Shown one piece after another: positions 6,982 through 22,479 of a stretch of DNA of 22,479 nt; the first letter of the stretch is position 1; each line of letters begins with the position of its first letter. Below the pieces are notes generated by a model. That model was not told where the DNA came from. It saw only the letters and a list, made by a program, of their open reading frames with translations, and searched no databases. This DNA comes from a virus. Location: the IMG/VR virus record IMGVR_UViG_3300030419_002273, positions 1 to 22,479 of that record; one strand, 5' to 3'. The position numbers and the translations under genes are program-made.

Positions 6982-9900
6982 ATGGTAAGAAGCGTAAACA
7001 AAAAGTACCAAGTGTGGTTGGCTGGCTACTATGATGACTTTAACGGAGCGAGAGCAATACCGGATGACCGCAACCAACCAAGCGATACAACTTATTCGGC
7101 TACCAAAAGTCATTTTGGAAACCCAATGAACGGGGAAGCATTTATCAATCCTCGTTTTAGATTTTCGGTAGAAGAAAGAACTCAAGATTCAGCGAAGAAG
7201 GTTGCGTCAACCACTAACCAATATCTACAAAACGACGGTATTTTTGAGTGGCTTACATTTGATGATACTAGGCTATCTAACGATGCTTGGGAAGGTAGAG
7301 CGCAACTACAATATCCCGATGGTCATGTAGCCAACCGATATAAGTTCGACAATGATTCAGGTTATGGTAGTGATTTCTACCAACGATTTATCAATGGACA
7401 TAATAGTAATGCTTCTTACATTGTACCTACAGGAGACAATGATGCTACTTTCGGTCATAGCGACATGAAAGCCTATGATGATACTAATTACAACGCAGAC
7501 AATGCTGGGCTACACTCTACAACAGGAAACTTCGTACAGAGAGCGCATTTGACTGGGGTGTTTATGGGAGAAAAACTACAGCAAAATAGCAGTACCACAA
7601 CTCCCGGCGAGATATTTCAAGAAATACATTCACCTTCAAAACAACCGTTCTTATGCATACAAGCAGCAAGAAAAACAGATACAGATTCTAATACTACACC
7701 AAGTATAATATATGATGGTCATTTGAATACTCGTCTTGACGGAGATATATTTACCGCAAGAATAGCATTACAAAGTATGATTTCAAGTGGCACTTGGTCG
7801 GATGTAGGTATTCATTTTGAAGTAGGGTTTCCTGTGGCACAGGCTGGTATTTTGAACGATGAAGGATATACAGGAACACCAGCAATTAATTTTACTCTCG
7901 ACCTTGATGATATTAGTTATGATACCCAAGCACTTTTGGGCGGTGGTAGTTATGATACACCACAAGTGACAATAGATAATGCTTGGTTAGATATTGACTT
8001 TGTATTTGATTATACCAATAATAAATTCAAGGCATACTATAATGGAACCGAAATTACTTCTACTAACTCTACAGCCGGGTCTTATAGTAGTGGTTATACT
8101 ATGTCCGGTGGGTCTGCAACTACGGCTTCTAATTTATATGGTTATCAGATTACTGTCACTAATACAGGTAGTAGTGGTACAAGTGGGTTTGTATCTTATT
8201 TGATGCTTGATAGAGTAGGTCTTGTGAGGTATCTTACTGATGATATTTCTACTACAGAAGAAGTACATATTACAGAATTAAACATACAACAAACAGTAAA
8301 TGGAATATCTACATGTCAAATTAGTATTGCAGATGACCCCGATTTAACTGGGGGAGTAAGAGGCGCTGCTGCTACTGATTATGTACTTAATCTTAAAAAC
8401 CTATTTGTCGCCTCTACGCCCCTAGATTGGAACCTATTAGTTTTTGCCGACTCAACTAGCAGAATTGATAGGCCCGTATGGAAAGGGGAAGTATCTACTT
8501 TTAACATTAAAGAAAAAAGGCGTAATAGAATTATTACTTTATCGGCGCAAGATACCATGAGTTATTTTGATAAACAAATACCATTATGGGATGTAGGACA
8601 AAAGGGGCAAAACACCTCAGAAGATTCTACCGACTATTGGAGTTATGATGCTCACGGCTTTAGAAATGCTATGTATCTTGGTGCAGATAAACTAAAAATA
8701 CTTGATGGAAATGTTGGTTTTGAATCTGACAGTTCATACGCGGAAACAGCAGACCAAAGAACACAACTAGGTTCAGGACACCCCATACAGATGTATAATA
8801 ATGAGGACACTTATGGACCAAATAGTATAGAAGATGATTACGAAGGTTATGCAATAGACGGGTTTGTTCAAAAGGTAGGCTCAACAAACACGATAGCGAT
8901 TATGAAAGATTCATCGCACGGTATTACTACATCTGTTCCTTCGGGTGGAGTAAATATGCAAAGCACAAACCATAACGGTAGTGGTTTAACAGTAAGTGCT
9001 GTGAGTGGTGCTGATGTTGAGTTTGCTAATACAACTCTTGCTTATGCACCCGAAACAGCAAAAATTGTCTATATAGGTAAATACCCAAATGTTCCTGAAT
9101 CAGAAAGAATTGATTACTATACTGCTACAGGTACAATACAAGGCGACCCGTATTTTGACTGGATAACAAATGTCCTTAATGTTGCCCCATCAACAAATAA
9201 TTGGCCCGCTGGTACAACAGTTCTTAACAAACTTTATGTCTATTTTGATGCAGACCCTAATTTAGAAGAAGGAGATACTTTCTATATTAATAGAAAAAAT
9301 GATGGTGGTAGTGGTAATCTTACTGCGGCTTATAATGTAAAACACACAGTAAATCGTATAGTAAAAATCCGTAATTATTTTGGTAATACTTATGGTACAG
9401 GAACTTATCTTGCTACCAACTTAATGTATTTGTGGGTAGTCAAAACAAATACTGATTACGACGGTGCTGAAAATCACGGTGTATATGCAGCAAACGCTTA
9501 TGCTCCTTCTGATGTTTTGTTAGTAAGTAGTAATAGGTTTTCTTGGTCGAAAGATACTGGAACAATTAGTAATGTTTTTGGTACAAACCAAGAGACAATT
9601 AAACATAGACCTATTCACGCACGATGGATGCGTGACCTTAGCAATTCATTGTGGTTTAAGTATCACTTTGGTATAGTAAAGAGGGACCCCAAAGACGAGC
9701 CCCCACCAGCCCCACAAACAGGTCATATTGCTGGTACTTCAAACGCTAGTTATAGTAGGGTTAGCGTGAGCCAAACCCTTTCACCTACTACTACCGTAAT
9801 ACAAGTTGACGAAACAGCCTATGATGCCGCACCTAATGCTGGTGTTGCAGAAATATGGTCAACACCGAATGTATCACCAGCACAATATACAAACGCAACA

Positions 9901-12900
9901 GAGTTTAAGGAAAAATTTATCTACAAAGGAAAGGCCACTACTGGTAGCGCGTGGTATCTTATAGGGGTACAACATATTCATGGCACTTACGCAATAGATT
10001 CTTCTTATAATTATTCGGAGAATGGAACCAACAAACGCATTTATCTCAAGTTCCAAGATTTTGAAGATGATTACAAACATATATGGTTGCTTTGGTCAGA
10101 TATGAGAAACAACGGAAATGCTGACGCTGATGGTAGCGAGAGAAAAACAGACTTTGGTTTACAATATCCAGTAAACGAAAATTATGATTTTGATTTATAT
10201 TTTGCTGACCAAGTAGATGCTAACGGAAACATAGACAAGTTTGGTAGCCTTAATGTGGGAGAGGATTTAGATGTTTGGAATGTTGATGCTACAACAGAAC
10301 CAATAACCGGAATACCATTCTCAAAACCAGTTGACTATAACTCAAAACAAGCAATTGCTCTTACAGATAGCGGTAGTAAACTAAGAATAACTACAAGCGA
10401 AACTGGTACTGTTGCTGCCGGTGATTATATCTATATCATTAATAGTACGAGTCATGATGGTGCGCACTTAGTAGATTCAGTAAGCAACGATACCTATATA
10501 CACACAACCACTACTTATGTTGGAAACGGCGAAGGTACGGGCGGTGCATATTATTGTCCAACTACAGAAGATGCATTAGATGTGTACCACGATTGGGAAA
10601 ATAAGGGAGGTGCATTTTTAATCATTGATGCCGCGAAGTTTTTCAATCTCAACACACATATAAACGGTGGTAAAACAGGCCAAGATGCCGGAGGAAGAAC
10701 AGACTTACAAAATTATGTTGTTGAAGGAAGAAGTGGTTTCCCTGCGCTTATAGATAATTATTGGACTGAGGCTCTTGCATCTTACCAAACTACAGGAGAT
10801 ATAACAAAAGAAAATAAAAACCAAAACTATTTAATTTCTTCTGCAACTTTAGCAAGTATTGGTTTCGTAGATGGTTTAATAGGATTACCTGTAAACGACG
10901 CATCTTTGTTTCAGGATAAAGGTATGGGTAAACTAATTACTGTGTACCAACAAAACAGAAATGAAAATCCGGGCGATATTAATTATTTTGCATGGGATGG
11001 TAAATTAGAAACAGAAGTAGATGGAACAATTGATACTGTTAGTTCGGAGACTACAGTAGCCGCACAAGCCCCATATACGGGCTTCTCTGTAGTAAATATA
11101 GTCACCGATGATAATACATTTGAAACCGATGGTATAAAAACAGGTATGGTTATAGAAAGGACTAACACATCAGGTACTATTACTTACCATAACATATATA
11201 GTGTAGTTGGACAAAAAGAATTACAAGTTGTAAGCGATGGCTCTTGGGCAACCACAGATACTGTTAAAATACCCCAACAACTAGCAAAGATATATGTTAT
11301 AGACGGAACACATATAACAGAGTCTATTTCACAAGATTTGCTAAATCTTGAATCTAATTTGTGGGAAATCTATGATGCGATGGCAGTTGATTGGTCAGAC
11401 TTAGGAATTAATATGAGTCTTGGTACTACAAGTGGTAGCGAAACAACACCAATAGCATACGAAGTACACTCTACTGTTTATTCTGCGTATATGTTGCGTT
11501 TGATGATGCATATTGATGGTTTCTATGAAAGCGAAAACGGAGGAACATATTGGGATAGCGACAAGTTCCGTATGTTATGGAATGCGGCAATCATGGACAC
11601 TTGGTTGCCATCAGCGAGAATTAATTCTATGTTTGATATAAACAATGTTCCAGTCACTAAGATGATGACTACCTACAATGATACTTCTTCAAATGATTCC
11701 TACGGGTCTATTATGGATAGTAGAGGGAAAACATTAGGGGCTCTTATAAGTTCTATACAAGAAAAGACTGGCTATGGTACTACAAATAGCCTTCACACAT
11801 CATTTTCATATCTAATAGGCAAAGACAACAGATTTGAGTTTAGACCAAAATATAATTCAGGTCTAGTATTCAACAGAGATAACATACATATTGGTAGCAT
11901 AAGAACCAACTTAACAGGACAAATAACAAATGTTCGTGTATATTACAACAATGGTTTATCCTTTGTTGATTGGCCTTCTGTAAGTCTAGGAGATACTACA
12001 AGATGGAATATAGTAAATCATCCTGAAATAACTTCGGGTGACGAAGCCTTGCTTGTCGCTAAACAAGAGTATGATTTGAGAAAAACTAATCCACTTGAAT
12101 TATCTATTACTCCAATACTTGAAAGCGATGTTGAACATAAAATGATAGAGAGTGGAAGATATGGCTATATAGCAGACCCTTATATTGCTTTAGCAGGTAC
12201 AAATGATACTGTAGCAAATGTATGTAATTGGTCTATTCTTGGTACTGGCGGTGTATTGTTCCCCGGAATGGTTAATGCGTTAGATGGCAACATAAATGTG
12301 GATATAGACCCATTAGAAACTAGATATGGTTCCTCCAAAGACACTAATGCTGCTGGAGATGTAGAGTGGAAACATAACTATTATTGGTATGGAAGTAATT
12401 CTATTTCTAACGCTGTACAAATAGTGCATATACCAAACAAAACACCGCTTACTAATAGTAATGGGCACTCTATGAGAATGACTGTTGATTTGAAAAACCA
12501 AACAGGCACAAGCATAGATGAAGCAGAGTTTGTAGTGACAATAGCAGATTATAACTATAGTAATGATAAAGACAAAACAGTAAGTGGTGCTACTTCATCT
12601 ATGGTAAGCACAAAAGATGTAAAACATAGTGGGTTTTATGAGATAGATATTCCAAGTACATACGGAGCAGTTGCTGGCGCAAAAATAGTATTTTCGTTTA
12701 ATGCAGAATACTGTCGTGCCCTTCTACGACACAGGTGCGGCGACCCTACACAAACAGCACACGGGTCAGCAGACTATATTTTAGATAGTAGCGTGGATAA
12801 TGGAAGCGGGTCAACAAACTTACATAGTATTTTCCCATTGGGATTAAGAGTGTATAGCGAAATGGGGGGTGGGTTTAGAGATGCTAGAAAGTGGTGGTAT

Positions 12901-13974
12901 GCACCACGCATTCAGATTTGTCGTGATTTATCATACACCCCAGCAACTTATGTTAGTGTGACGGATGCTGGTTTGGAGTTAAATTCGGAACCTATGGTTA
13001 TACAAGACATTTTATGGAAGGTTCCATCAGGTAGAGCAGAAGAAGTAAGTCTAGTATTAGAAAGGGATGAGTCTATTGCTACTGGTGGTCTAATATCTTA
13101 TCTTTTCCCTAAACATTCACCCGGAAGGCAGAGTAGTTCTCCTGTAGGTGGCGGTGGCGACGATGGTAGTTATCAAGAGCCACCAGTAAACGGTAGGCCA
13201 CCAGTAAATGATTCTGATACCTTGACTGACCCAAGCAAACAAAAGCCCGGAGGCAACACTAGAGATTCTACTGGCACTATCTATGATGCATCTAGTGGTA
13301 TAGGATTAGGTAGCCTTTCGGGTACTACCTATGGTAGATTAAGTGGTAGGATGGACTTACCAAATAACGACCTTTCGGGAGACTCAAAGTTTTCTGTTCT
13401 AGGTCAAGGGAAAACTGGTAGTACACCTTCAACCAAGAGAGGTATTGAAGGTATGGGTGTAGATATACATGTGACTGGTGGTTCAGCATCGGTAACAGCA
13501 GACGGGTATATGTTTGGTGGTAAGGGTCTTTTAGGTGTAGGAGATGCCGTAGCAACATCACAAGAAACAAACATAGAGACTACATTTACTATACCTACAG
13601 ATATTTTGAGTAATAGACTTACAGTACAAGCAAATATAACGCATAGTCCCTCGGTAGGAAATACTGTAAGCACAACATTTACAAGAGGAATACTATATAT
13701 TACTGTCACCATAGAAGAAACTGGAGAAACTATTACTAACGAAGTCAAAGTAAGAACAGGAATCAGAAATAAAACTATAACTTTGTTGTCAAATAAACCC
13801 ATTACAGGGCTTAGAAACTCCGGTAAAAAAGTTAAGATAACAATAACTAGAAAGGCTGGTATAGGAGAAGATAATGCCGACACAACAGGTATAACAATAC
13901 ATAACTTGGATGTAAAGATGCAGAGAGCGTCTGCTCACACAACTTCTATATCCAATCAGTTTTCGCCTAATTAA
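6982..13974 (+). CDS. Giant baseplate hub / tail-tip protein
   Basis: The product has 2330 residues, is rich in Asn, Thr, Ser, Gly and Tyr, and is almost all beta. Residues about 200-415 look like a LamG/concanavalin-type sandwich (WLDIDFVFDYTNNKFKAYYN). Residues about 421-530 (ITELNIQQTVNGISTCQISI, then PVWKGEVSTFNIKEKRRNRI) resemble the first part of a gp27/tail-hub fold. Residues about 1585-1740 (LGALISSIQEKTGYG, RFEFRPK, QITNVRVYYNNG) resemble its second part. Between them lie about 1000 residues of beta-rich repeats, including IIDAAKFFNL and DGAHLVDSVSNDTYI. After another sandwich region comes a Gly/Ser/Pro linker (about 2046-2150) and a C-terminal beta domain with ITVTIEETGETI. It probably closes the tail tube and displays host-binding domains at the tip. 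The start is supported by GGTGA at 6973-6977. Boundaries are approximate and the hub assignment is by pattern. Confidence 0.6.
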   Translation: MVRSVNKKYQVWLAGYYDDFNGARAIPDDRNQPSDTTYSATKSHFGNPMNGEAFINPRFRFSVEERTQDSAKKVASTTNQYLQNDGIFEWLTFDDTRLSNDAWEGRAQLQYPDGHVANRYKFDNDSGYGSDFYQRFINGHNSNASYIVPTGDNDATFGHSDMKAYDDTNYNADNAGLHSTTGNFVQRAHLTGVFMGEKLQQNSSTTTPGEIFQEIHSPSKQPFLCIQAARKTDTDSNTTPSIIYDGHLNTRLDGDIFTARIALQSMISSGTWSDVGIHFEVGFPVAQAGILNDEGYTGTPAINFTLDLDDISYDTQALLGGGSYDTPQVTIDNAWLDIDFVFDYTNNKFKAYYNGTEITSTNSTAGSYSSGYTMSGGSATTASNLYGYQITVTNTGSSGTSGFVSYLMLDRVGLVRYLTDDISTTEEVHITELNIQQTVNGISTCQISIADDPDLTGGVRGAAATDYVLNLKNLFVASTPLDWNLLVFADSTSRIDRPVWKGEVSTFNIKEKRRNRIITLSAQDTMSYFDKQIPLWDVGQKGQNTSEDSTDYWSYDAHGFRNAMYLGADKLKILDGNVGFESDSSYAETADQRTQLGSGHPIQMYNNEDTYGPNSIEDDYEGYAIDGFVQKVGSTNTIAIMKDSSHGITTSVPSGGVNMQSTNHNGSGLTVSAVSGADVEFANTTLAYAPETAKIVYIGKYPNVPESERIDYYTATGTIQGDPYFDWITNVLNVAPSTNNWPAGTTVLNKLYVYFDADPNLEEGDTFYINRKNDGGSGNLTAAYNVKHTVNRIVKIRNYFGNTYGTGTYLATNLMYLWVVKTNTDYDGAENHGVYAANAYAPSDVLLVSSNRFSWSKDTGTISNVFGTNQETIKHRPIHARWMRDLSNSLWFKYHFGIVKRDPKDEPPPAPQTGHIAGTSNASYSRVSVSQTLSPTTTVIQVDETAYDAAPNAGVAEIWSTPNVSPAQYTNATEFKEKFIYKGKATTGSAWYLIGVQHIHGTYAIDSSYNYSENGTNKRIYLKFQDFEDDYKHIWLLWSDMRNNGNADADGSERKTDFGLQYPVNENYDFDLYFADQVDANGNIDKFGSLNVGEDLDVWNVDATTEPITGIPFSKPVDYNSKQAIALTDSGSKLRITTSETGTVAAGDYIYIINSTSHDGAHLVDSVSNDTYIHTTTTYVGNGEGTGGAYYCPTTEDALDVYHDWENKGGAFLIIDAAKFFNLNTHINGGKTGQDAGGRTDLQNYVVEGRSGFPALIDNYWTEALASYQTTGDITKENKNQNYLISSATLASIGFVDGLIGLPVNDASLFQDKGMGKLITVYQQNRNENPGDINYFAWDGKLETEVDGTIDTVSSETTVAAQAPYTGFSVVNIVTDDNTFETDGIKTGMVIERTNTSGTITYHNIYSVVGQKELQVVSDGSWATTDTVKIPQQLAKIYVIDGTHITESISQDLLNLESNLWEIYDAMAVDWSDLGINMSLGTTSGSETTPIAYEVHSTVYSAYMLRLMMHIDGFYESENGGTYWDSDKFRMLWNAAIMDTWLPSARINSMFDINNVPVTKMMTTYNDTSSNDSYGSIMDSRGKTLGALISSIQEKTGYGTTNSLHTSFSYLIGKDNRFEFRPKYNSGLVFNRDNIHIGSIRTNLTGQITNVRVYYNNGLSFVDWPSVSLGDTTRWNIVNHPEITSGDEALLVAKQEYDLRKTNPLELSITPILESDVEHKMIESGRYGYIADPYIALAGTNDTVANVCNWSILGTGGVLFPGMVNALDGNINVDIDPLETRYGSSKDTNAAGDVEWKHNYYWYGSNSISNAVQIVHIPNKTPLTNSNGHSMRMTVDLKNQTGTSIDEAEFVVTIADYNYSNDKDKTVSGATSSMVSTKDVKHSGFYEIDIPSTYGAVAGAKIVFSFNAEYCRALLRHRCGDPTQTAHGSADYILDSSVDNGSGSTNLHSIFPLGLRVYSEMGGGFRDARKWWYAPRIQICRDLSYTPATYVSVTDAGLELNSEPMVIQDILWKVPSGRAEEVSLVLERDESIATGGLISYLFPKHSPGRQSSSPVGGGGDDGSYQEPPVNGRPPVNDSDTLTDPSKQKPGGNTRDSTGTIYDASSGIGLGSLSGTTYGRLSGRMDLPNNDLSGDSKFSVLGQGKTGSTPSTKRGIEGMGVDIHVTGGSASVTADGYMFGGKGLLGVGDAVATSQETNIETTFTIPTDILSNRLTVQANITHSPSVGNTVSTTFTRGILYITVTIEETGETITNEVKVRTGIRNKTITLLSNKPITGLRNSGKKVKITITRKAGIGEDNADTTGITIHNLDVKMQRASAHTTSISNQFSPN
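13971..13974. other. Convergent operon junction: shared TTAA stop codons
   Basis: The rightward hub gene ends with TAA at 13972-13974 and the leftward ERCC4 gene ends with TAA on the opposite strand at 13971-13973. The two genes overlap by four bases with no space for a terminator. I see no hairpin or T-tract immediately beyond either stop. Confidence 0.9.
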
Positions 13975-14660
13975 TAATCTTCTCTAAGCGAAAGTATTGC
14001 GCGGGCCTTTCTTCTTGAAATACCATTAACCCCCATCAGCGCCTTCTGTGTAGTTCCTTTCCTTAGTATGCTTGGTATGCTACCGAACTCCGCTAATAAA
14101 TCTTCTGCTTGACCTACGGTGACACCATCCACAGAAGATAGAATTTGGATTCTTGGGTCTAGTTTAGATTTTTTAATGGCATTTTTTTCTTCTGTTTTAT
14201 GGCGATAATATGCTAACCCCTGTTGTGTATGATTAACGACAAGCCATTCTACAAACTCGTCCATAGTAGTGACTTCCATGTATTTAATTTTAGGGAATCT
14301 TTGATAAAATGTGGTCTTGAATTGTTTAATTACCTTCTTCATCCTAGCCATCTCTACTGCCAAAGCCTTAGCAGTTGGCTTACCATTAGGCACAAATGGC
14401 TTTAGTTCAGTACCGTACACCACCAAGAAGGGGTGTTCACAGGACTCCTCTAAGTCTTTCAGTTGGTCAACAATGGTGCGTGTGCGTCCGAAGCCCATGA
14501 TAGACCTATACAGGTCGTTTATCTCTTTGGCCTCTATACCCCACTCACCTATGGTGTAATCGGATGCTTTCATCCGACATACTTTTACCTCATCTTTACC
14601 CATACGCATGAGTAATTTGTTGATGACCTTCGGATTTTCGCGGTCATCTACTAAGAGCAT
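13971..14660 (-). CDS. ERCC4-type (XPF/Mus81-like) structure-specific nuclease with HhH domain
   Basis: The product has 229 residues. The N-terminal nuclease domain starts at once with LLVDDREN (Asp5/Asp6, Arg7, Glu8), followed by SDYTIGEWGIEAKEINDL. Here Asp34, Glu43, Lys45 and Asp49 correspond to the 'GDy......ERKt..D' metal-binding motif of ERCC4 nucleases, with Ala replacing Arg in ERK. The C-terminus (about 167-229), with SSVDGVTVGQAEDLLAEFG and LMGVNGISRRKARAIL, is a helix-hairpin-helix pair that binds branched DNA. There is no helicase domain, so it is like the short archaeal/viral forms. It should cut forked or flap DNA during replication or recombination. An in-frame TAA four codons upstream fixes the start region. 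No ribosome binding site is seen, but a TATA box lies at 14682-14689, which suggests a leaderless transcript. It is the last gene of the leftward operon. Confidence 0.85.
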   Translation of the reverse strand: MLLVDDRENPKVINKLLMRMGKDEVKVCRMKASDYTIGEWGIEAKEINDLYRSIMGFGRTRTIVDQLKDLEESCEHPFLVVYGTELKPFVPNGKPTAKALAVEMARMKKVIKQFKTTFYQRFPKIKYMEVTTMDEFVEWLVVNHTQQGLAYYRHKTEEKNAIKKSKLDPRIQILSSVDGVTVGQAEDLLAEFGSIPSILRKGTTQKALMGVNGISRRKARAILSLREDY

Positions 14661-14692: not shown

Positions 14693-14860
14693 TTACCATC
14701 CTCTATCGAAATAAACCTCATCTTCTATGATAATTATTTGAGTCTTACACCTATCACAATAGCGTTCCATGTCTGTAAAGAGCGACCACTCTGCTTTACA
14801 TGTCACACACAAACCATGCTCGTACATTTCTTTAATTTGGTGTTCTTTCATCATAACCAT
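14693..14860 (-). CDS. Small zinc-ribbon protein (55 aa)
   Basis: This 55-residue protein begins MVMMKEHQIKEMYEHG and carries two CxxC knuckles, CVTC (Cys18, Cys21) and CDRC (Cys35, Cys38). They are separated by 13 residues, which is a classic zinc ribbon. It ends in an acidic/aromatic tail (EDEVYFDRGW). It is supported as a gene by an excellent ribosome binding site, GAGGTAAT at 14864-14871, which contains the stop codon of the primase gene, so the two are almost certainly translated together. Zinc ribbons of this size bind nucleic acids or proteins. Its place directly after primase suggests an accessory replication role, which is inference. Family not recognised. Confidence 0.8.
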   Translation of the reverse strand: MVMMKEHQIKEMYEHGLCVTCKAEWSLFTDMERYCDRCKTQIIIIEDEVYFDRGW

Positions 14861-14863
14861 AGT

Positions 14864-14871
14864 ATTACCTC
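14864..14871 (-). promoter_or_regulatory. Ribosome binding site GAGGTAAT overlapping the primase stop
   Basis: On the minus strand GAGGTAAT lies 3 bases before the ATG at 14860 and includes the TAA stop of primase at 14865-14867. It identifies the short zinc-ribbon frame as a real, coupled gene. Confidence 0.8.
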
Positions 14872-15914
14872 TTTACTCCATCGTGTGCCCAACAAGGGCC
14901 AGCGTCCACACAGCACTTGTTAGGTGAATGCTCATAGTCTATGATGCTTTCAACATGAAACCTTGTAGTGTGTTCGTTATAGTCTCTCCAACCTAACTTT
15001 GACATAAAAGCAACAATTGTTTCGATGCATTGTTTCCTCTGTTCGGGTGTGAGTGTTGAAGGGTGTGCAAACCATCTTAGGTTTTCCGCTAAGTGTTGTG
15101 TTAGTGCTATCCTTACTGTGTGTTTAGGGTTCTCGTCACGCATGGCCTTCTCTAAACAAGGAGGAATAGGTATCTGACCGGCAGAGCCAATCTCCCCCTC
15201 AAACTCCCCTACGGGGGTAGTTTCTTCGACTGGGTTGTTTGCTATCCATGCTCGTATATTGAAGCCACCTATAGGTGGCTCTCCCGTATATGGGTCGTAG
15301 CACTTAAGTTCCTTTAATGGTTTTGTGGGTATTTCGTAATCATCTTTAATGTAAAACCCTGTCGGCTCTATATTCACAGCCCACCTACCTCTCTTTGGAT
15401 TGTAAGTATCAGGAATGCGTGTGAGTTTTTGAGGGAAACCTACACCATCAAGTGTTTTTAGTCCTCGCGCCTGTAGCCTTTGGTAGCGGTCTATGTGTTT
15501 TGCGATGGCTGTTCCCTTCACAGGGGTATCAAAGAATTGATGAACATGAAATCCCCTGCCTGTGAAAACTATTCGTATGTCTCCTACAATAGAAAGGTGG
15601 GTAGGATTAAGTCTTTTTATCAATTTGAAAACATCTTGCTTAACATCTTCAAGCGTGCCTCCCTCTATCATATCAAAATCCCACCATGCTCTATCCATAA
15701 CCACAGATTCCACATCCATTTTCCATGTTCGTATTTCGTCGCGCCTTTCAAAAGAATAAAGAGAAGTATAACATGATGCCTTACCATTTACTTTTGAGAT
15801 ATAATTATCATAATCGTCGCGGGTTTCGCAGAGAGTGCGTCGCAGACCTATCTCTCGCGGAAACAGCATAGTCATATAATCACGCCGCTTGTTGGTGTCC
15901 GCATTCACAGCCAT
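14865..15914 (-). CDS. Archaeo-eukaryotic DNA primase, PriS-like with PriL-like C-terminus
   Basis: The product has 349 residues. The catalytic domain shows AWWDFDM (Asp79, Asp81: the metal-binding DxD), TGRGFHVHQ (118-126: the 'sGrGfHvh' nucleotide-binding motif) and LTRIPDTYNPKRGRW (164-178), all hallmarks of the archaeo-eukaryotic primase catalytic subunit. The C-terminal third (about 248-349) begins IPIPPCLEKAM (Cys253) and ends KCCVDAGPCW (Cys334, Cys335, Cys341). This resembles the start and middle of the 4Fe-4S domain of the large subunit PriL. Cys296 or the adjacent Cys335 might complete a cluster, because the chain stops before the usual last Cys. So this may be a one-chain primase that makes primers for PolB. 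An in-frame TAG two codons before Met1 limits the start to Met1, Met14 or Met16. The preceding small gene overlaps the first 35 bases, so Met14, which follows GCGTGAT, is a real alternative. Confidence 0.82.
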   Translation of the reverse strand: MAVNADTNKRRDYMTMLFPREIGLRRTLCETRDDYDNYISKVNGKASCYTSLYSFERRDEIRTWKMDVESVVMDRAWWDFDMIEGGTLEDVKQDVFKLIKRLNPTHLSIVGDIRIVFTGRGFHVHQFFDTPVKGTAIAKHIDRYQRLQARGLKTLDGVGFPQKLTRIPDTYNPKRGRWAVNIEPTGFYIKDDYEIPTKPLKELKCYDPYTGEPPIGGFNIRAWIANNPVEETTPVGEFEGEIGSAGQIPIPPCLEKAMRDENPKHTVRIALTQHLAENLRWFAHPSTLTPEQRKQCIETIVAFMSKLGWRDYNEHTTRFHVESIIDYEHSPNKCCVDAGPCWAHDGVKR

Positions 15915-16032
15915 ACACTAAGATTTCTTCGGGGGCTGAACCCTCTTGTCCGTTAACTCTCCAAACCTTTTCTGACCCTTCCCACAAATCATCGTGACCA
16001 CAGGCCGCACATACTATTACCGTATTATTCAT
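15880..16032 (-). CDS. Small zinc-ribbon protein (50 aa) between Cas4-like and primase genes
   Basis: This 50-residue protein has CAAC (Cys8, Cys11) followed by GHDDLWEG, and near the end GCECGHQ (Cys42, Cys44), a likely zinc ribbon of CxxC...CxC type. The start is strongly supported: its ATG overlaps the TGA stop of the Cas4-like gene as ATGA (16029-16032), and GGGTGGGA lies just upstream. Its 3' end runs 35 bases into the primase gene in a different frame. Function is unknown. Its location between a nuclease and a primase suggests a nucleic-acid-binding or assembly role, which is inference. Confidence 0.78.
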   Translation of the reverse strand: MNNTVIVCAACGHDDLWEGSEKVWRVNGQEGSAPEEILVYGCECGHQQAA

Positions 16033-16880
16033 ACTTCCCACCCACTTATTCCGTTTAATTCTGCTTCACAATTTAATGAAAAGTCACACCACATAGGACA
16101 GAAATAGTCATTCCATTTCATAGTCCATTGGTGGGAAGTTAATGATTCAATAGTGTCATATAATGATTCCTCAAAGGCATTATAAGAGCGTTCCAACATT
16201 GGCTCCATTAGAGCGAACCCACGCTCCGGCCCAAGCCACATGGTTTTCCCTCGCTTATTACCTTCAAGTAAAAGTTTGTCGTTGTTATCCTCCGGCACTT
16301 CATAGTCGGGTGTGATATACAAGAAGTGAGTGACCTCATCATATCCTAACATACGCAATAAACGAGCATAATACACCAACTCCTTTCTTGTGCGCCCTAA
16401 CTTACCCATGTTCATATTTCCGGTTTTCAATTCGACTAGGATTAATCCTCCAGTTTCCGGGTGTCGTAGTACACCATCAATAAGACCGACCCACACTATT
16501 TGGTGTCCGTCAAACTCCTCAAATACTTCGTGTTTTACTTCCGCCTCTACTACATCAAACCCACCTATGTCGTGTGCTACCTGATGCAATAACAAGTTTA
16601 GAGAATCTACTCCTTCATCTTCCTGTACCCCCTGCTCTATCGCAGTAGGCATTATCATGTCCGGCCCTTGAAGCAACCCGCTTTCCATGACCGTGTGAAT
16701 ATGTGTCCCGCGTATCATCTCCTCAGTAGGAGGTGGTCGCGGTATGTCTGCTACATAACCCCAGTAGAATTGACGGGGGCACATCTTGTAGCCCATTAAG
16801 GAGGACTTACTTATACGAATAATATCCGCACCTATCGGATTGTAGGACGAGGCTGATGTTTGTTCTGCTGTCGCTTGCAT
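16029..16880 (-). CDS. Cas4/RecB-like PD-(D/E)XK nuclease with iron-sulfur cysteines
   Basis: The product has 283 residues. It has ISKSSLMGYKMCPRQFYW (Cys34), the RecB-family 'S.s.l..y..CP..f' opening, then IRGTHIH (His60), VGLIDGVL (Asp135) and LILVELKTG (Glu150, Lys152), which form the PD-(D/E)XK active site. The QhxxY-type helix appears as ELVYYARLL. Near the C-terminus FCPMWCDFSLNC (Cys261, Cys265, Cys271) together with Cys34 would hold a 4Fe-4S cluster, as in Cas4 and AddB. The role is probably 5' or 3' resection of DNA ends during viral recombination or replication. No cas1/cas2 or repeats are nearby, so a CRISPR role is not supported. It starts 4 bases after the upstream zinc-ribbon gene and overlaps the next small gene by ATGA. 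Confidence 0.85.
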   Translation of the reverse strand: MQATAEQTSASSYNPIGADIIRISKSSLMGYKMCPRQFYWGYVADIPRPPPTEEMIRGTHIHTVMESGLLQGPDMIMPTAIEQGVQEDEGVDSLNLLLHQVAHDIGGFDVVEAEVKHEVFEEFDGHQIVWVGLIDGVLRHPETGGLILVELKTGNMNMGKLGRTRKELVYYARLLRMLGYDEVTHFLYITPDYEVPEDNNDKLLLEGNKRGKTMWLGPERGFALMEPMLERSYNAFEESLYDTIESLTSHQWTMKWNDYFCPMWCDFSLNCEAELNGISGWEV

Positions 16881-16884
16881 TGTA

Positions 16885-17190
16885 TCATTCTTCCTCGCCG
16901 CCTTGTGTTATGCCTTCGTCATCCCACGATTCAAATGTAGTCTGTTCTTTACCGTAAATGTTCTCACCACAATTAGGGCACATATCGCTCTTATCCACAT
17001 TTTGAACAACAGGTATCATTAGTTGTTCTTTACAAGCAACACAAATAGGTTTCTCTATCTTACCCATTTCATCAAGTAGATTATACATGATAGTTTGCAT
17101 CTTCATGATGTCTGCACCCATTATTGATATAACACCCGCAACCTCTCTAACGAAGTTCTCAAATGCTTCTTGTTCGACTTTCTTTGCCAT
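16885..17190 (-). CDS. Zinc-ribbon protein with N-terminal helical domain (101 aa)
   Basis: The product has 101 residues. Residues 1-45 form an amphipathic helix rich in Met, Glu and Lys (FENFVREVAGVISIMGADIM) that could oligomerise. Residues 50-74 hold CVAC (Cys50, Cys53) and CPNC (Cys71, Cys74), a zinc ribbon with a 17-residue spacer. The tail is acidic (DDEGITQGGEEE). A TATA element lies 22 bases upstream of its ATG and GGTGG lies between them, so it can be the first gene of a transcript (with the Cas4-like and primase genes following) as well as part of the longer operon after PolB. An in-frame TAG two codons upstream fixes the start. Function unknown; transcription-factor-like, replication-accessory and protein-adaptor roles are all possible. 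Confidence 0.75.
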   Translation of the reverse strand: MAKKVEQEAFENFVREVAGVISIMGADIMKMQTIMYNLLDEMGKIEKPICVACKEQLMIPVVQNVDKSDMCPNCGENIYGKEQTTFESWDDEGITQGGEEE

Positions 17191-17206
17191 AATCTATCCA
17201 CCACCG

Positions 17207-17222
17207 ATTACACATATAAACT
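17207..17222 (-). promoter_or_regulatory. Repeated promoter element, copy 1 (TTTATATG TATA box)
   Basis: The minus strand reads AGTTTATATGTGTAAT, with a consensus archaeal TATA box TTTATATG at 17213-17220. The box ends exactly 22 bases before the ATG at 17190. The same 16 bases occur at 21898-21913 with identical spacing to another start codon. Transcription would be expected to begin at or within a few bases of the ATG. Confidence 0.7.
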
Positions 17223-17225
17223 GTT

Positions 17226-19445
17226 CTATATCCACACCAATTTCCCAAGACCGTTTTTAGCATTCTCAAGCGGTTGCGTGTCCCAACCGGCCAAGTTATA
17301 GTATGGAGAAACTTTCTTGATAATGAATCTATCAACTAGAGTCTTATAACCAATGTTAGTAATACCCTCAATTTCTTTGGGGTTATCAAACGCTATGTAT
17401 TTACCTTTATCATTAATAGTCACAAGGAAAAACGAACCTTTACGATAACCTTTCCCAAGATTTTCATTGGCCCAATTTGCGGCGGCAGACGAACCCGAAA
17501 GAACCTTGTACTTATTTAGGTCTTGTTCTATCTTACCTTTCATACACAATTTTTCCGGTTCTATTCCACCCCCCATTATTGCGTCAATTAGTCCTTGATT
17601 TCGCATTGTGACAGCGTTCTCAGATTTACGGTTTAAGATGCCTTCTATGGTGTGTTGCATGGCTTCTTTCATCACAGGAGGCATACGAGATTGCTTCATC
17701 TCAATACCTTTAACATAAATGTTGGGTTCATGATACTCACCATCAGTCCACTTAACCATTCCTGTGTATCGGTTCTTCGCTACCATGATAAGGCGCGAAC
17801 ACCATTTTTCAAACTCCACTACGATTGGCGACATTCTCTCATTAATTTTCGGTAGAATTTCCATCCCTTCTTCGGGTGTTGGTATAATACAAAACACAGA
17901 ATCGGTATGTCCATATATTACCTTGAATCCAAGACTCATAGCCTCTGCCATTAACTCACCCAATGTGTTTCGTGATGTGTGGGTGATAGCGGCGGCTATT
18001 TCGGGGTGATACATTCCATACTTAGCATCTCCGGCCACCCCATACATAGAAGCAACGAGAGTCTTTGCGGCAAACTGCATTGTGTCCCACTTCTGTTTTT
18101 CGGCCCCATCGCTTACAAACATTTTTGTCTTGAATATATTTCTTAACTCAGTCATCTTATCCATCTGTCTGACAAGCAAGCCCTTTTCGTTCTGTGAAAA
18201 CTTAGTACCATTACCACAATCTTGTCCGTTATCATCAAGGGTGTCCCATGAGATGTTGTATTTTTCTGCGTTGCTGTGGTACATGGCGCGTATATCTAAG
18301 ATGCCTACATTATCATACACGGCTGGCTGTACCTCTAATATATCAGCACCCTCATACTCCACCTTGTCAAACTGCGGTTTAGATGGGATTCTTCGGTTAA
18401 AGTCAGGGTCTGTGAGTACCAACTGAGTGAACATTTTTGTGATAAAGGGAGTTGAACGAATATCGCATTGTACAATATGTTGCAGAGATGTATAGTAGTC
18501 AAGAGCATTAACAGCCTCATCCAGTTTAGGTAGTAGGCGCACATCCTGTCGGCAGTAGTGCAGATACAATGCTTTATCCTCAAACCATGTGTCGTGTCCG
18601 TGTTCCAACTCAATTTTCTTTTCCCCTAAGATTTCGTAGGCGACATCATCGAGTTTGTATGAAGGTAGTTTTCCATTCTTCAACTCCCATAACTTAGATA
18701 CTGCGAGCATCAAGTCTATACAGTTCCTACCAACGATAGGTTGCGCCCAATCTTTGAACTCATACCGTATCTTTCTCATAGGAGAAAGAGATAACTCGGA
18801 CAATCCATTGGCCCGACATCTTTCAATAATAGTCTTGATGTCTGCACCGACTACATACCACCCAGTAATAATGTCGGGGTCACACGCTTTCATGTGGCGC
18901 AGAAAATGAATAAGCATTGACTTCTCATCACAGAAACCCATAGCAGGTGTCTCGTAGGTATAGTCTCCATAACTGTCAAACTTCTTACCTGTTTGTTCTT
19001 CTATACTATGCTCTATAAACCACACATATTCCTTTTCCTTAAAGTTATCATACACTACTATACATCTCAATTTGCCTGTGGTTGGCGACCACTCCGCGTC
19101 GAGATACCATGTGCGATGTTTATAGTTTTCTATTGGGGCGTTCCCCTCATTGATATAGTCAGCGAGAACCTGATTAGGATAAGGGATGTTTGCTTCCCAT
19201 GTTTGTCCATTCCTACCTATCTGTTTTACATCATAGTCGGTAGCACAGATTATCTTTGTAAGTTCTTCACCGTAAAGACCAGTATAACCTTCTTCTGTTC
19301 TTACGGCCTCTGCTATATATTTAGCATCTTCACTACGGACGAAACAATAAGGCCAATGACCTTTGATAGTTTTTTCGTATCTTTTCCCAGTATTGTCACG
19401 GCCCCGTATGATTATATCTCTACCCCTAGAGTGTTCAATTATCAT
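17226..19445 (-). CDS. polB: Family B DNA polymerase with 3'-5' exonuclease
   Basis: The product has 739 residues, near the usual archaeal PolB size. Exonuclease motifs are intact: TWYLDAEW (Asp116, Glu118), ITGWYVVGADIKT (Asp202) and LHYCRQDVRLL (Tyr297, Asp301). Polymerase motif A is LDIRAMYHSNAEKYNISWDT (Asp384), where DxxSLYPS is usual. Motif B is QFAAKTLVASMYGV (Lys461, Tyr468), with Ala for the usual Asn of KxxxNSxYG. Motif C is VIYGHTDSVF (His513, Asp515), with His for the first Asp of DTD. KGIEMKQSRMP matches the template-binding KxR region. The essential Asp384 and Asp515 remain, so activity is likely. It should replicate the viral genome with the PCNA-like clamp and primase encoded nearby. 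An in-frame TAA two codons upstream fixes the start, and the gene overlaps the end of the preceding zinc-ribbon gene by 11 bases. Confidence 0.93.
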   Translation of the reverse strand: MIIEHSRGRDIIIRGRDNTGKRYEKTIKGHWPYCFVRSEDAKYIAEAVRTEEGYTGLYGEELTKIICATDYDVKQIGRNGQTWEANIPYPNQVLADYINEGNAPIENYKHRTWYLDAEWSPTTGKLRCIVVYDNFKEKEYVWFIEHSIEEQTGKKFDSYGDYTYETPAMGFCDEKSMLIHFLRHMKACDPDIITGWYVVGADIKTIIERCRANGLSELSLSPMRKIRYEFKDWAQPIVGRNCIDLMLAVSKLWELKNGKLPSYKLDDVAYEILGEKKIELEHGHDTWFEDKALYLHYCRQDVRLLPKLDEAVNALDYYTSLQHIVQCDIRSTPFITKMFTQLVLTDPDFNRRIPSKPQFDKVEYEGADILEVQPAVYDNVGILDIRAMYHSNAEKYNISWDTLDDNGQDCGNGTKFSQNEKGLLVRQMDKMTELRNIFKTKMFVSDGAEKQKWDTMQFAAKTLVASMYGVAGDAKYGMYHPEIAAAITHTSRNTLGELMAEAMSLGFKVIYGHTDSVFCIIPTPEEGMEILPKINERMSPIVVEFEKWCSRLIMVAKNRYTGMVKWTDGEYHEPNIYVKGIEMKQSRMPPVMKEAMQHTIEGILNRKSENAVTMRNQGLIDAIMGGGIEPEKLCMKGKIEQDLNKYKVLSGSSAAANWANENLGKGYRKGSFFLVTINDKGKYIAFDNPKEIEGITNIGYKTLVDRFIIKKVSPYYNLAGWDTQPLENAKNGLGKLVWI

Positions 19446-19608
19446 ACCTTACCACATCTACTTGTTCTTGTTCGTTTCTTTTAAGGAAAATGTTGTTGCA
19501 AAATTCGCATTCATAAATCTCTCCTTCTGATATAGTATCAACATATACCCAAGAGAATTTACCCCCACACTTTTCACAAGACATAAATGGGGATTCTGTG
19601 TTGCTCAT
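19435..19608 (-). CDS. Zinc-ribbon protein directly upstream of PolB (57 aa)
   Basis: The product has 57 residues with CEKC (Cys11, Cys14) and CEFC (Cys34, Cys37), a zinc ribbon with strands KFSWVYVDT and EGEIYE between the knuckles, and a charged tail. A longer reading from an ATG at 19641 would add 11 residues. I prefer 19608 because there the ATG overlaps the stop of the preceding gene as ATGA (19605-19608) and GGTGATG (19611-19617) lies directly upstream. Its end overlaps the PolB start by 11 bases. Overlap with PolB suggests coupled synthesis and possibly a polymerase accessory role, but nothing in the sequence proves it. Confidence 0.75.
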   Translation of the reverse strand: MSNTESPFMSCEKCGGKFSWVYVDTISEGEIYECEFCNNIFLKRNEQEQVDVVRYDN

Positions 19609-19814
19609 TTCATCACCGGATGTTTCATTGTCCCTCCACAAAGCCCCATAACATATCTACCATCAGTCCTTGTTGTAAATATAGTACCTGACCTCATGTG
19701 AATAGAGTATGTTGTTCCGGCGGCATTATGCAAATCTAATGTCACCGCAGAAATATCAGCAATACGCAAAACAGTCTGTCCGCTATTAGTGGTTATAGGT
19801 TTAGTCCAAGTCAT
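19605..19814 (-). CDS. Small beta-rich protein, unknown function (69 aa)
   Basis: The product has 69 residues with repeated strand patterns (TVLRIADISAVTLDLHN, TYSIHMRSGTIFTT) and a short tail containing one Cys and several His and Met residues (GLCGGTMKHPVMK). It resembles small SH3-like or PH-like barrels in strand density, but no family is recognised. The start is supported by the ATGA overlap with the upstream gene (19811-19814) and by AGGAGGAGGG just before it. It sits between the clamp and polymerase genes. Confidence 0.65.
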   Translation of the reverse strand: MTWTKPITTNSGQTVLRIADISAVTLDLHNAAGTTYSIHMRSGTIFTTRTDGRYVMGLCGGTMKHPVMK

Positions 19815-20092
19815 ATTAGTCCCTCCTCCTTATCTTCCTCTCCTAACGATTCACTTATAATGTTTTCCCTCTCTATTTTTTCTATGGATAAGTTTTGGGG
19901 ATTAGAGTAGTCCTCATCTAATTCTACACGAACATTAATTGATGCCACATAATTAATACCTTCTTCATCGTGCCATACCACAGTAAAAGGTTCATTATGA
20001 AAATCTACCCGCATTGGGAATATGTGAAATGTACCATCTTTGGTACTTCTCCATCTTTTTACTAAACCTTTATCGTAAATTAAACCCATCAT
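19811..20092 (-). CDS. Small acidic protein, unknown function (93 aa)
   Basis: The product has 93 residues. The first 60 residues look beta-rich (GTFHIFPMRVDFHNEPFTVV, NYVASINVRVELD). The last 30 are acidic and helical (SIEKIERENIISESLGEEDK). The ATG at 20092 overlaps the TGA of the clamp gene (ATGA, 20089-20092) and is preceded by GAGGT. No known domain is recognised. Tight coupling to the clamp gene suggests a DNA-replication partner, which is only inference from position. Confidence 0.65.
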   Translation of the reverse strand: MMGLIYDKGLVKRWRSTKDGTFHIFPMRVDFHNEPFTVVWHDEEGINYVASINVRVELDEDYSNPQNLSIEKIERENIISESLGEEDKEEGLI

Positions 20093-20928
20093 ATAACCTC
20101 GTTTGATATTTGAAATATGAAGTCACCATCACCAAGAGTTATTAGCATAGGATAACCATTATTGACATGGGTGAAGTCCCATACACCTATGTTGACATCG
20201 CTGTTTAGGTGTTGGAATATATACTCAAGCCCCCCGTTATATGTGGCAGTTATCTCCCGTGATTCATCTTCCATGTTAACATACGAATACAAGATTTCAT
20301 TTATCTGAGTAGTAGTTTTACCCTTTAACTCATCACCAACAGTCACCAATAATTTATTGTTTGTATATTGTATGGTGTATTTATTAAACTTCTGTCCATT
20401 CATAGAGTCGCACCTAAATGCTTCGTAAAGAGTAGTGGTGTTAAGGTCAGAAAGGCGTAGCGCAACATCCAAAGCCTCTCCTTCGTTAGTGTAGTATTTC
20501 ATATCATCAACATTTATCTTCTTAGCCAAACTATCTGACTTCTCAGCCCAAAGAGCGATAGTGTCAGGTGTGTGCGGAAACGCTCTCGCCTCTTTATTGG
20601 CACTAAGGGTTGTTTGTTTGCTACTAGACTTAAACTTGACCTTATCTGTTTCAGGTGTAATATATAGAACACCCCCATGATATTTTAGAACACCCAAAAC
20701 ATCCTCAATATCTGTTATCGCAAACTCTCCCTCACCAGTACAAGGTATTGAAAGGCGCATTAATGATGTGACGCCATCCTTTACTAGCGTACAAGCACTC
20801 AACCTACCCTCGTTTGCTTTTAGCAAAAGAGAATGTACCTGTGAGATACTTTTACCGTCAATGGTTTGCTTCCGTTGCATCAACGAAAGTAGCCACTTGA
20901 GCGAGTCAGTCTCAACAACAATAGGCAT
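20089..20928 (-). CDS. PCNA-like DNA sliding clamp (divergent)
   Basis: The product has 279 residues (archaeal PCNA has about 245-250). The first domain opens with a helix (SLKWLLSLMQR) and has RLSACTLVKDGVTSLMRLSI, similar to the 'D..hvalv...l' strand-turn-strand of PCNA. The second half (KYTIQYTNNKLLVTVGDELK, ITATYNGGLEYIFQHLNSD) is followed by YPMLITLGDGDFIFQIS, which resembles the 'P..i......g...yyiAP' C-terminal strand of clamps. A duplicated clamp-domain layout fits the length. It would tether PolB to DNA as a ring around the duplex. The start is fixed by AAGGAGTAAT, which overlaps the stop of the ATPase gene. The assignment rests on weak motifs plus context (ATPase, PolB, primase); structure prediction would settle it. 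Confidence 0.6.
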   Translation of the reverse strand: MPIVVETDSLKWLLSLMQRKQTIDGKSISQVHSLLLKANEGRLSACTLVKDGVTSLMRLSIPCTGEGEFAITDIEDVLGVLKYHGGVLYITPETDKVKFKSSSKQTTLSANKEARAFPHTPDTIALWAEKSDSLAKKINVDDMKYYTNEGEALDVALRLSDLNTTTLYEAFRCDSMNGQKFNKYTIQYTNNKLLVTVGDELKGKTTTQINEILYSYVNMEDESREITATYNGGLEYIFQHLNSDVNIGVWDFTHVNNGYPMLITLGDGDFIFQISNEVI

Positions 20929-21897: not shown

Positions 21898-21913
21898 ATT
21901 ACACATATAAACT
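21898..21913 (-). promoter_or_regulatory. Repeated promoter element, copy 2 (TTTATATG TATA box)
   Basis: The minus strand reads AGTTTATATGTGTAAT, identical over 16 bases to copy 1 at 17207-17222. The TATA box TTTATATG is at 21904-21911 and ends exactly 22 bases before the ATG at 21881. It overlaps the stop codon of the chaperonin gene, so it would start transcription of the ATPase-clamp-polymerase group independently of the chaperonin. Confidence 0.7.
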
Positions 21914-22479
21914 ATTGCTCAGGTGCTATGATTGCGGCATCGGTCATCAGAACCAATGCGGCGATAGACACCGCGCTCTCAAGACTGTTCAAGACCACTT
22001 GCATAGGGTCAAGCACACCATCTTCAAGAGCGCATCGGTATTCGCCTGTCTTACCACAAACATACCCTGCTTCATCAAAGTGCATCTTAGGGCCAATATC
22101 CCCATACTCAAACTGAATACTTTTACCAGCATTTTCTACGATAGTTTCAAGTGGAGTAGTAAGACCCTTGTAGAATAAGTCGCTGATTACGCTATCCTCA
22201 TTCTCAGGAGTAATGTCCTGTAGGTATTCTGCGGCGCGGAAAAGTGTTGCGCCTCCGCCGATGACTACACCGGACTCAAGAGCAAGACGACTCGCATTTA
22301 CCGCGTCATCAACTCGCTCCTTCCTTTCTACCTGCTCTACTTCGGAAGCACCCCCAACATAAATGGTGGAGATGCCTGTTGTGAGTCTATTGATTCTATT
22401 TTGGTATTGTTCTTCTAACCAATTGTTGCCGACTGTTTCATACATTTCACTTAGGTAGTCTAAATGGTCTTTGTTCGCA
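21912..22479 (-). CDS. groL: Group I chaperonin (GroEL/Hsp60-like), C-terminal part; start outside window
   Basis: The frame is open to the right edge of the window, so the 5' part is missing. The Met at 22445 is internal, because the in-frame residues before it (KDHLDYLSE) continue the family pattern. RINRLTTGISTIYVGGASEV, ERVDDAVNAS and SGVVIGGGATLF match the GroEL segment with the ATP-hydrolysis Asp (RVDDA) and the GGG turn of the equatorial domain. GLTTPLETIVENAG and DGVLDPMQVVLNSLESAVSI match the end of the fold. It stops at TDAAIIAPEQ and lacks the Gly-Gly-Met tail of bacterial GroEL. A region with two Cys (YVCGKTGEYRC) replaces the usual short 'yg.n..t' segment. The motifs are group I, not thermosome. 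It may fold viral capsid or tail proteins. It is followed by a TATA element for the next gene. Confidence 0.88.
   Translation of the reverse strand, partial: ANKDHLDYLSEMYETVGNNWLEEQYQNRINRLTTGISTIYVGGASEVEQVERKERVDDAVNASRLALESGVVIGGGATLFRAAEYLQDITPENEDSVISDLFYKGLTTPLETIVENAGKSIQFEYGDIGPKMHFDEAGYVCGKTGEYRCALEDGVLDPMQVVLNSLESAVSIAALVLMTDAAIIAPEQ

Follow-up and report, generated by a model that had tools for sequence, protein, structure and literature searches.

Conserved Cys4 miniproteins in a viral replication operon and a candidate clamp-docking accessory beside PolB

A stretch of viral DNA of 22,479 nucleotides (IMG/VR record IMGVR_UViG_3300030419_002273; the whole stretch was analysed and is called the window below) carries on its minus strand a replication block in which very small frames with four cysteines alternate with a polymerase, nucleases and a primase. 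Such a locus raises the question of whether these frames are genes at all and, if so, whether their products serve the enzymes beside them. The reading reached here is that all four, named Z1 to Z4, are real, conserved miniproteins of the replication operon, that Z2 would most likely be a replisome accessory docking on the sliding clamp, that Z3 would act together with a neighbour, and that Z1 and Z4 are lineage additions; taken as a whole, we give this combination a probability of about 0.5. Judged by gene content, the source group is probably one of uncultured marine tailed viruses that are magrovirus-like, and a search for relatives in cellular genomes by means of PolB and primase confirmed none. 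At the window edge, 21912-22445 encodes the C-terminal part of a Cpn60/TCP-1 chaperonin, of which the 68.5-kb relative G001 holds a full version of 505 aa. No tRNA gene was found in the window; a tRNA-Ala gene is present at L090:3966-4041 (contig of L062).

Four small Cys4 genes in the replication block

The block is headed by a probable RecA/Sak4-like ATPase, an assignment that draws on our own reading and on a PHROG match of low significance (E 0.01). The features that follow it are, in order:

20089-20928, minus strand: probable sliding clamp or processivity factor, from weak PHROG matches of some family members
19811-20092, minus strand: g93, small protein upstream of g69; its homologue in the Z1-less locus L051 ends in a helix-turn-helix (HTH)
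19605-19814, minus strand: g69, small protein upstream of Z1, with an ATGA overlap
19435-19608, minus strand: Z1, zinc ribbon of 57 aa immediately preceding PolB, lineage-specific
17226-19445, minus strand: PolB, 739 aa (PF00136, PF03104), C-terminus NGLGKLVWI
16885-17190, minus strand: Z2, 101 aa, directly after PolB, with predicted helix, ribbon and disordered tail
16921-16944, minus strand: PIP-box-like motif in the Z2 tail, QTTFESWD (residues 83-90; position derived from the Z2 frame)
16029-16880, minus strand: Cas4-like PD-(D/E)XK nuclease (PF12705), invariant cysteines 34, 261, 265 and 271
15880-16032, minus strand: Z3, 50 aa, a single zinc ribbon between Cas4-like nuclease and primase
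14865-15914, minus strand: archaeo-eukaryotic-type primase, weakly matching PriS (TIGR00335, E 0.0015, short of the cut-off)
14693-14860, minus strand: Z4, zinc ribbon of 55 aa, flanked by primase and ERCC4-family nuclease
13971-14660, minus strand: ERCC4-family nuclease (PF02732)

The sequence-only reading had described four zinc-ribbon frames, each with a CxxC spacing of its own and each coupled to a neighbouring gene, and these descriptions were borne out. All four frames are present and translate to Cys4 proteins of 50-101 aa with four different spacings, namely CxxC-x19-CxxC in Z1, CxxC-x17-CxxC in Z2 (C50, C53, C71 and C74), CxxC-x30-CxC in Z3 and CxxC-x13-CxxC in Z4. Each thus displays the two knuckles and four conserved cysteines of a zinc ribbon, and all may bind zinc. 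The junctions are short or overlapping throughout. The start codon of Z1 lies within the ATGA that closes the upstream gene, and the 3' end of Z1 shares 11 nt with PolB. Z2 begins 35 nt past PolB, and 4 nt separate its end from the Cas4-like gene. The Cas4-like stop and the Z3 start share an ATGA, and 4 nt beyond Z3 comes the ATG at 15875 (which, from the alignment, is probably the conserved primase start). Z4 follows the primase after 4 nt and is separated by 32 nt from the ERCC4-family nuclease. Of 48 contigs scored, 32 have the 4-nt start/stop overlap of the Cas4-like gene with Z3.

The same reading had called the four ribbons unrelated. In profile comparisons with hhalign every pair scored below 15% except Z1/Z3, for which a weak similarity was found (66%), so that the description perhaps fails for this one pair. 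A common origin of all four was rejected, the weak similarity being limited to Z1 and Z3. Searches for curated names for Z1-Z4 in Pfam, PHROGs and NCBIfam returned weak matches only, which fell short of the curated cut-off wherever there is one; the best of them was that of Z1 to phrog_6422 (E 8e-5), a Lar-like restriction-alleviation family.

Slot conservation and selection among relatives

Related loci were collected from IMG/VR by PolB and primase searches, down to about 51-55% identity, and members of each family were gathered by iterated HMMs over the open reading frames of 69 sequences. Slot occupancy was counted over the contigs spanning a slot, with loci obtained twice from a single contig merged by a hand-made list; near-identical contigs remain, and the counts are therefore of contigs, not of independent lineages. 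On this basis, Z2 occupies the slot between PolB and the Cas4-like nuclease in 49/49 contigs, and Z3 that between the Cas4-like nuclease and the primase in 48/49, the remaining contig (L061) having a divergent Cys4 frame there (8755-8991). Z4 was found in 28 of 44 spanning contigs and Z1 in 34 of 56. The expectation that position and cysteines would be conserved in related genomes consequently holds for Z2 and Z3, which are near-universal in their slots with their cysteines kept. Z1 and Z4 keep their cysteines too, but they are additions of particular lineages, each at a fixed slot.

The four cysteines are invariant in every family alignment (31, 25, 17 and 16 sequences in the four alignments; one short tandem Z3 copy of L021 is excluded from that of Z3). 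The spacing within a knuckle is more flexible: the second knuckle of Z3 alternates between CxC and CxxC among family members, and the first knuckle of Z2 is CxC in L044/L049. Purifying selection acts on the coding frames, as dN/dS was below 1 in all pairs compared for Z1-Z4, with medians of 0.33-0.37 versus 0.06-0.09 for the enzymes. In the block of G001, a greedy list of open reading frames contains no small genes besides the four families, and genome-wide these make up four of the six small frames that pass the Cys4 pattern (P about 3e-5); of the other two, at least one looks like a chance frame. Because homologues are recovered by HMM, the cysteines are invariant, dN/dS is below 1 and the families cluster in G001, the frames are not products of chance, and Z1-Z4 are real, conserved miniproteins of the viral replication operon.

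Two loci hold additional copies. A tandem Z3 pair lies between the Cas4-like nuclease and the primase at L021:11465-11611 and 11616-11741, and a second Z2-like protein, which lacks the PIP-like motif, is encoded at G005:C1:67735-68061 (in L090; contig of L062).

On the PolB tree, the distribution of Z1 fits one gain and one loss. HTH-bearing proteins precede PolB in many other, Z1-less groups; at L051:4672-5004 and similar loci, for instance, a helix-turn-helix closes the small protein that immediately precedes PolB (in L051 it is UPF0122-like). Among the loci listed, Z1 and an HTH protein never occur together, and some loci have neither. This exclusion is weak evidence of a shared function, since very few events on the tree underlie it. 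The slot between primase and ERCC4-family nuclease holds a different Cys4 miniprotein in several Z4-less groups. As for roles, we infer those of Z1, Z3 and Z4; for Z3, the conserved slot suggests that the protein may work with one neighbour, either the Cas4-like nuclease or the primase. Its predicted model is a three-stranded ribbon (pLDDT 86.5) that weakly matches RPB9 (1qyp, E 0.017) and chains of TFIIS type, and a viral protein in BFVD is 64% identical to it.

Z2 as a candidate clamp-docking accessory

The AlphaFold2 model of Z2 consists of a long helix (residues 2-41), a confident Cys4 region in which only short bridges are assigned, and a low-confidence tail. The ribbon spans residues from about 44 to 83 and is followed by a predicted-disordered tail with the PIP-like QTTFESW (residues 83-89) and an acidic end. 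Fold searches of Z2 and Z3 against the PDB gave weak hits, with no match at E 0.001 and Z-scores of 3.5 or less, the best weak ones of the Z2 ribbon being archaeal MCM zinc domains. The tail motif is conserved. Among 44 distinct Z2 tails, 42 match its loose form, where 1.25 would be expected after shuffling each tail, and 37 match the strict form; two of the 44 distinct sequences lack it. Its core is Q-x-x-hydrophobic-x-x-aromatic, with Q at 90% or more in the Z2 alignment and conservative variation at the other key positions (F/I/V/L, then W/F/I/L). The second aromatic of the textbook PIP box is missing, and the residue after the first aromatic is mostly D. A scan of the last 40 residues of the other families of the block found no comparable tail motif except in the ERCC4 family (16/40), whose matches we read as part of a folded helix-hairpin-helix region.

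In G001, two adjacent small proteins have the PIP-like endings QETLEDW and QTLLERF (G001:C1:42521-42805 and 42807-43244, in L078), for which no homologues were found in the other genomes searched.

A partner for the tail would be at hand in the product of 20089-20928, probably a virus-encoded sliding clamp. It is treated as such because some members of its family match PHROG processivity-factor families (weakly, best E 6.4e-5 and 4.2e-4), because of its place in the replication block, and because G001 encodes an RFC-type clamp loader ATPase; the window copy had no match in Pfam, among PDB sequences or in phage records. PolB itself shows little sign of a canonical C-terminal PIP motif, with 0 of 37 distinct C-termini matching the strict and two the loose form in the last 15 residues. 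Its C-termini share an NGLxxxxW-like ending instead, through which PolB may contact the clamp directly, as T4 gp43 does through its own C-terminus. Six halovirus PolBs, taken from the best PolB matches and not a census, do end in a PIP-like motif when read by eye.

The universal slot, the PIP-like and acidic tail, the probable clamp in the operon and the precedent of PBP1, discussed below, support an accessory role for Z2. The earlier suggestion that the ribbons are accessory subunits thereby gains ground for Z2, at the level of sequence; this protein is most likely an accessory of the replisome that binds the clamp and is similar in kind to PBP1. A possible arrangement is that the ribbon and the N-terminal helix would form a body, probably touching PolB, DNA or a second Z2 copy, while the flexible tail would dock on the viral clamp; thus docked, Z2 could either modulate the polymerase or hold it to the clamp in trans. 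Both the binding of Z2 to the clamp and its contact with PolB are what we infer from such features. The fuller picture, a viral PolB holoenzyme in which a separate Z2 subunit provides clamp tethering in trans to a polymerase devoid of a canonical C-terminal PIP motif, and in which the other miniproteins serve primase and nuclease, is put forward tentatively.

A point against this reading is that several contigs hold another gene in the interval between PolB and Z2. A PAPS-reductase-domain gene lies there at L001:4688-5500 (PF01507) and, by resemblance, at L010:10488-11309 and L011:3317-4138, and a frame resembling a DNA methyltransferase directly follows PolB at L005:5068-5907. Mom-family DNA-modification genes adjoin Z2 at L012:3304-4191 and L033:7395-8033 (both PF25680) and, by resemblance, at L069:5660-6316.

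It could be argued that the miniproteins are generic zinc-ribbon proteins, binding nucleic acid or regulating genes, which ride in the operon without contacting its enzymes. Ribbons of this kind are common in archaea, Haloferax volcanii having 49 C(P)XCG proteins (PMC11241148), the annotation of Halorubrum virus Serpecor1 also places CxxC genes close to PolB and the Cas4-like nuclease, and the constraint on the miniproteins is, as seen above, weaker than on the enzymes. A bystander role is nevertheless unlikely, given that Z2 and Z3 hold the same slots in almost all contigs and that the Z2 tail motif lies far above its shuffled expectation.

Zinc ribbons are found in transcription factors, and Z2 might be a clamp-tethered coactivator that connects RNA polymerase with the replication clamp and so lets late transcription follow the onset of replication. 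The C-termini of T4 gp43, gp55 and gp33 bind the T4 clamp by similar hydrophobic and acidic motifs (PMC2988020), and gp33, with 112 residues, is of a size with the 101 aa of Z2 and its hydrophobic and acidic tail; a coactivator like gp33/gp55, and with it the earlier idea of a transcription switch, therefore stays a live rival. No transcription factor stood out among the sequence or fold matches of Z2, and the gene sits inside the replication block beside PolB, which makes such a function rather improbable.

The use of PCNA and PIP boxes by archaeal hosts would also allow the Z2 tail to target the host clamp, inhibiting host replication or diverting host PCNA. With a probable viral clamp in the same operon and Z2 tied to the replication block in every contig that spans its slot, we consider this very unlikely.

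Least probable of all is the proposal that the ribbons replace zinc or Fe-S modules absent from the neighbouring enzymes, as the adjoining slots and the lack of a further C-terminal cysteine in some primases could suggest. It finds no support in the neighbours, which keep cluster-type cysteines of their own: the Cas4-like nuclease has its four in 42/42 sequences, largely refuting the idea for this enzyme, and equally invariant (42/42) are C253 and C341 of the primase, whose C-terminal cysteines we read as PriL-like. The further primase cysteine is confined to some lineages and, compared by eye, does not track with Z4. The ribbons hence fill no evident gap. A survey of B-family polymerases (PMC7544198) describes Cys modules at the C-terminus for the PolBs of eukaryotes and of two groups of archaea, while the PolBs of magroviruses and haloviruses are related there to the B5/T4-like part; nothing thus points to the loss of such a module from the PolB studied here.

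If Z2 does tether PolB to the clamp, annotation has overlooked small replisome subunits in these viruses, and processivity in the group comes from a separate protein, not from the polymerase tail. The precedent set by PBP1, of an archaeal PolB with several subunits, would then reach into viruses as well, and there would be a concrete handle on the Cys4 miniproteins that crowd around replication genes in archaeal viruses.

Comparison with known systems

Z1, Z3 and Z4 are like the haloarchaeal C(P)XCG microproteins in being one-domain Cys4 proteins of less than 70 aa, although the latter are host genes; the Haloferax volcanii set has varied functions, and several of its members do not bind zinc (PMC11241148). 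Z3 may also resemble the zinc ribbons of TFIIS and RPB9 type in its three-stranded model, with weak matches at Z 3.5 or less.

For Z2, one set of counterparts consists of small proteins encoded downstream of halovirus PolB. Those of HRTV-25 (with an upstream start) and HRTV-27 (Cys4, QTGLGDF) end in a PIP motif, and HRTV-2 has a protein of 38 aa with QSSLYDF and an acidic end. Like Z2, they are small, carry a C-terminal PIP-like motif and, in two cases, are Cys4 proteins, but the halovirus PolBs carry a C-terminal PIP of their own.

PBP1 of Saccharolobus binds PolB1 and limits strand displacement; it has conserved cysteines and a 19-residue tail with 12 Glu (PMC5418573). Z2 shares with it, going by the description of PBP1, a size of about 100 aa, cysteines of metal-binding type, a strongly acidic C-terminal tail and the pairing with a B-family polymerase. 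The finger of PBP1 was modelled as C2H2, in contrast to the Cys4 of Z2, and the term 'PIP motif' is absent from that paper. The hydrophobic and acidic C-terminal segment of Z2 is, finally, like those of T4 gp33, gp55 and gp43, for which clamp binding has been seen, while Z2 differs from the T4 proteins by its Cys4 ribbon and its Q-x-x-hydrophobic-x-x-aromatic core.
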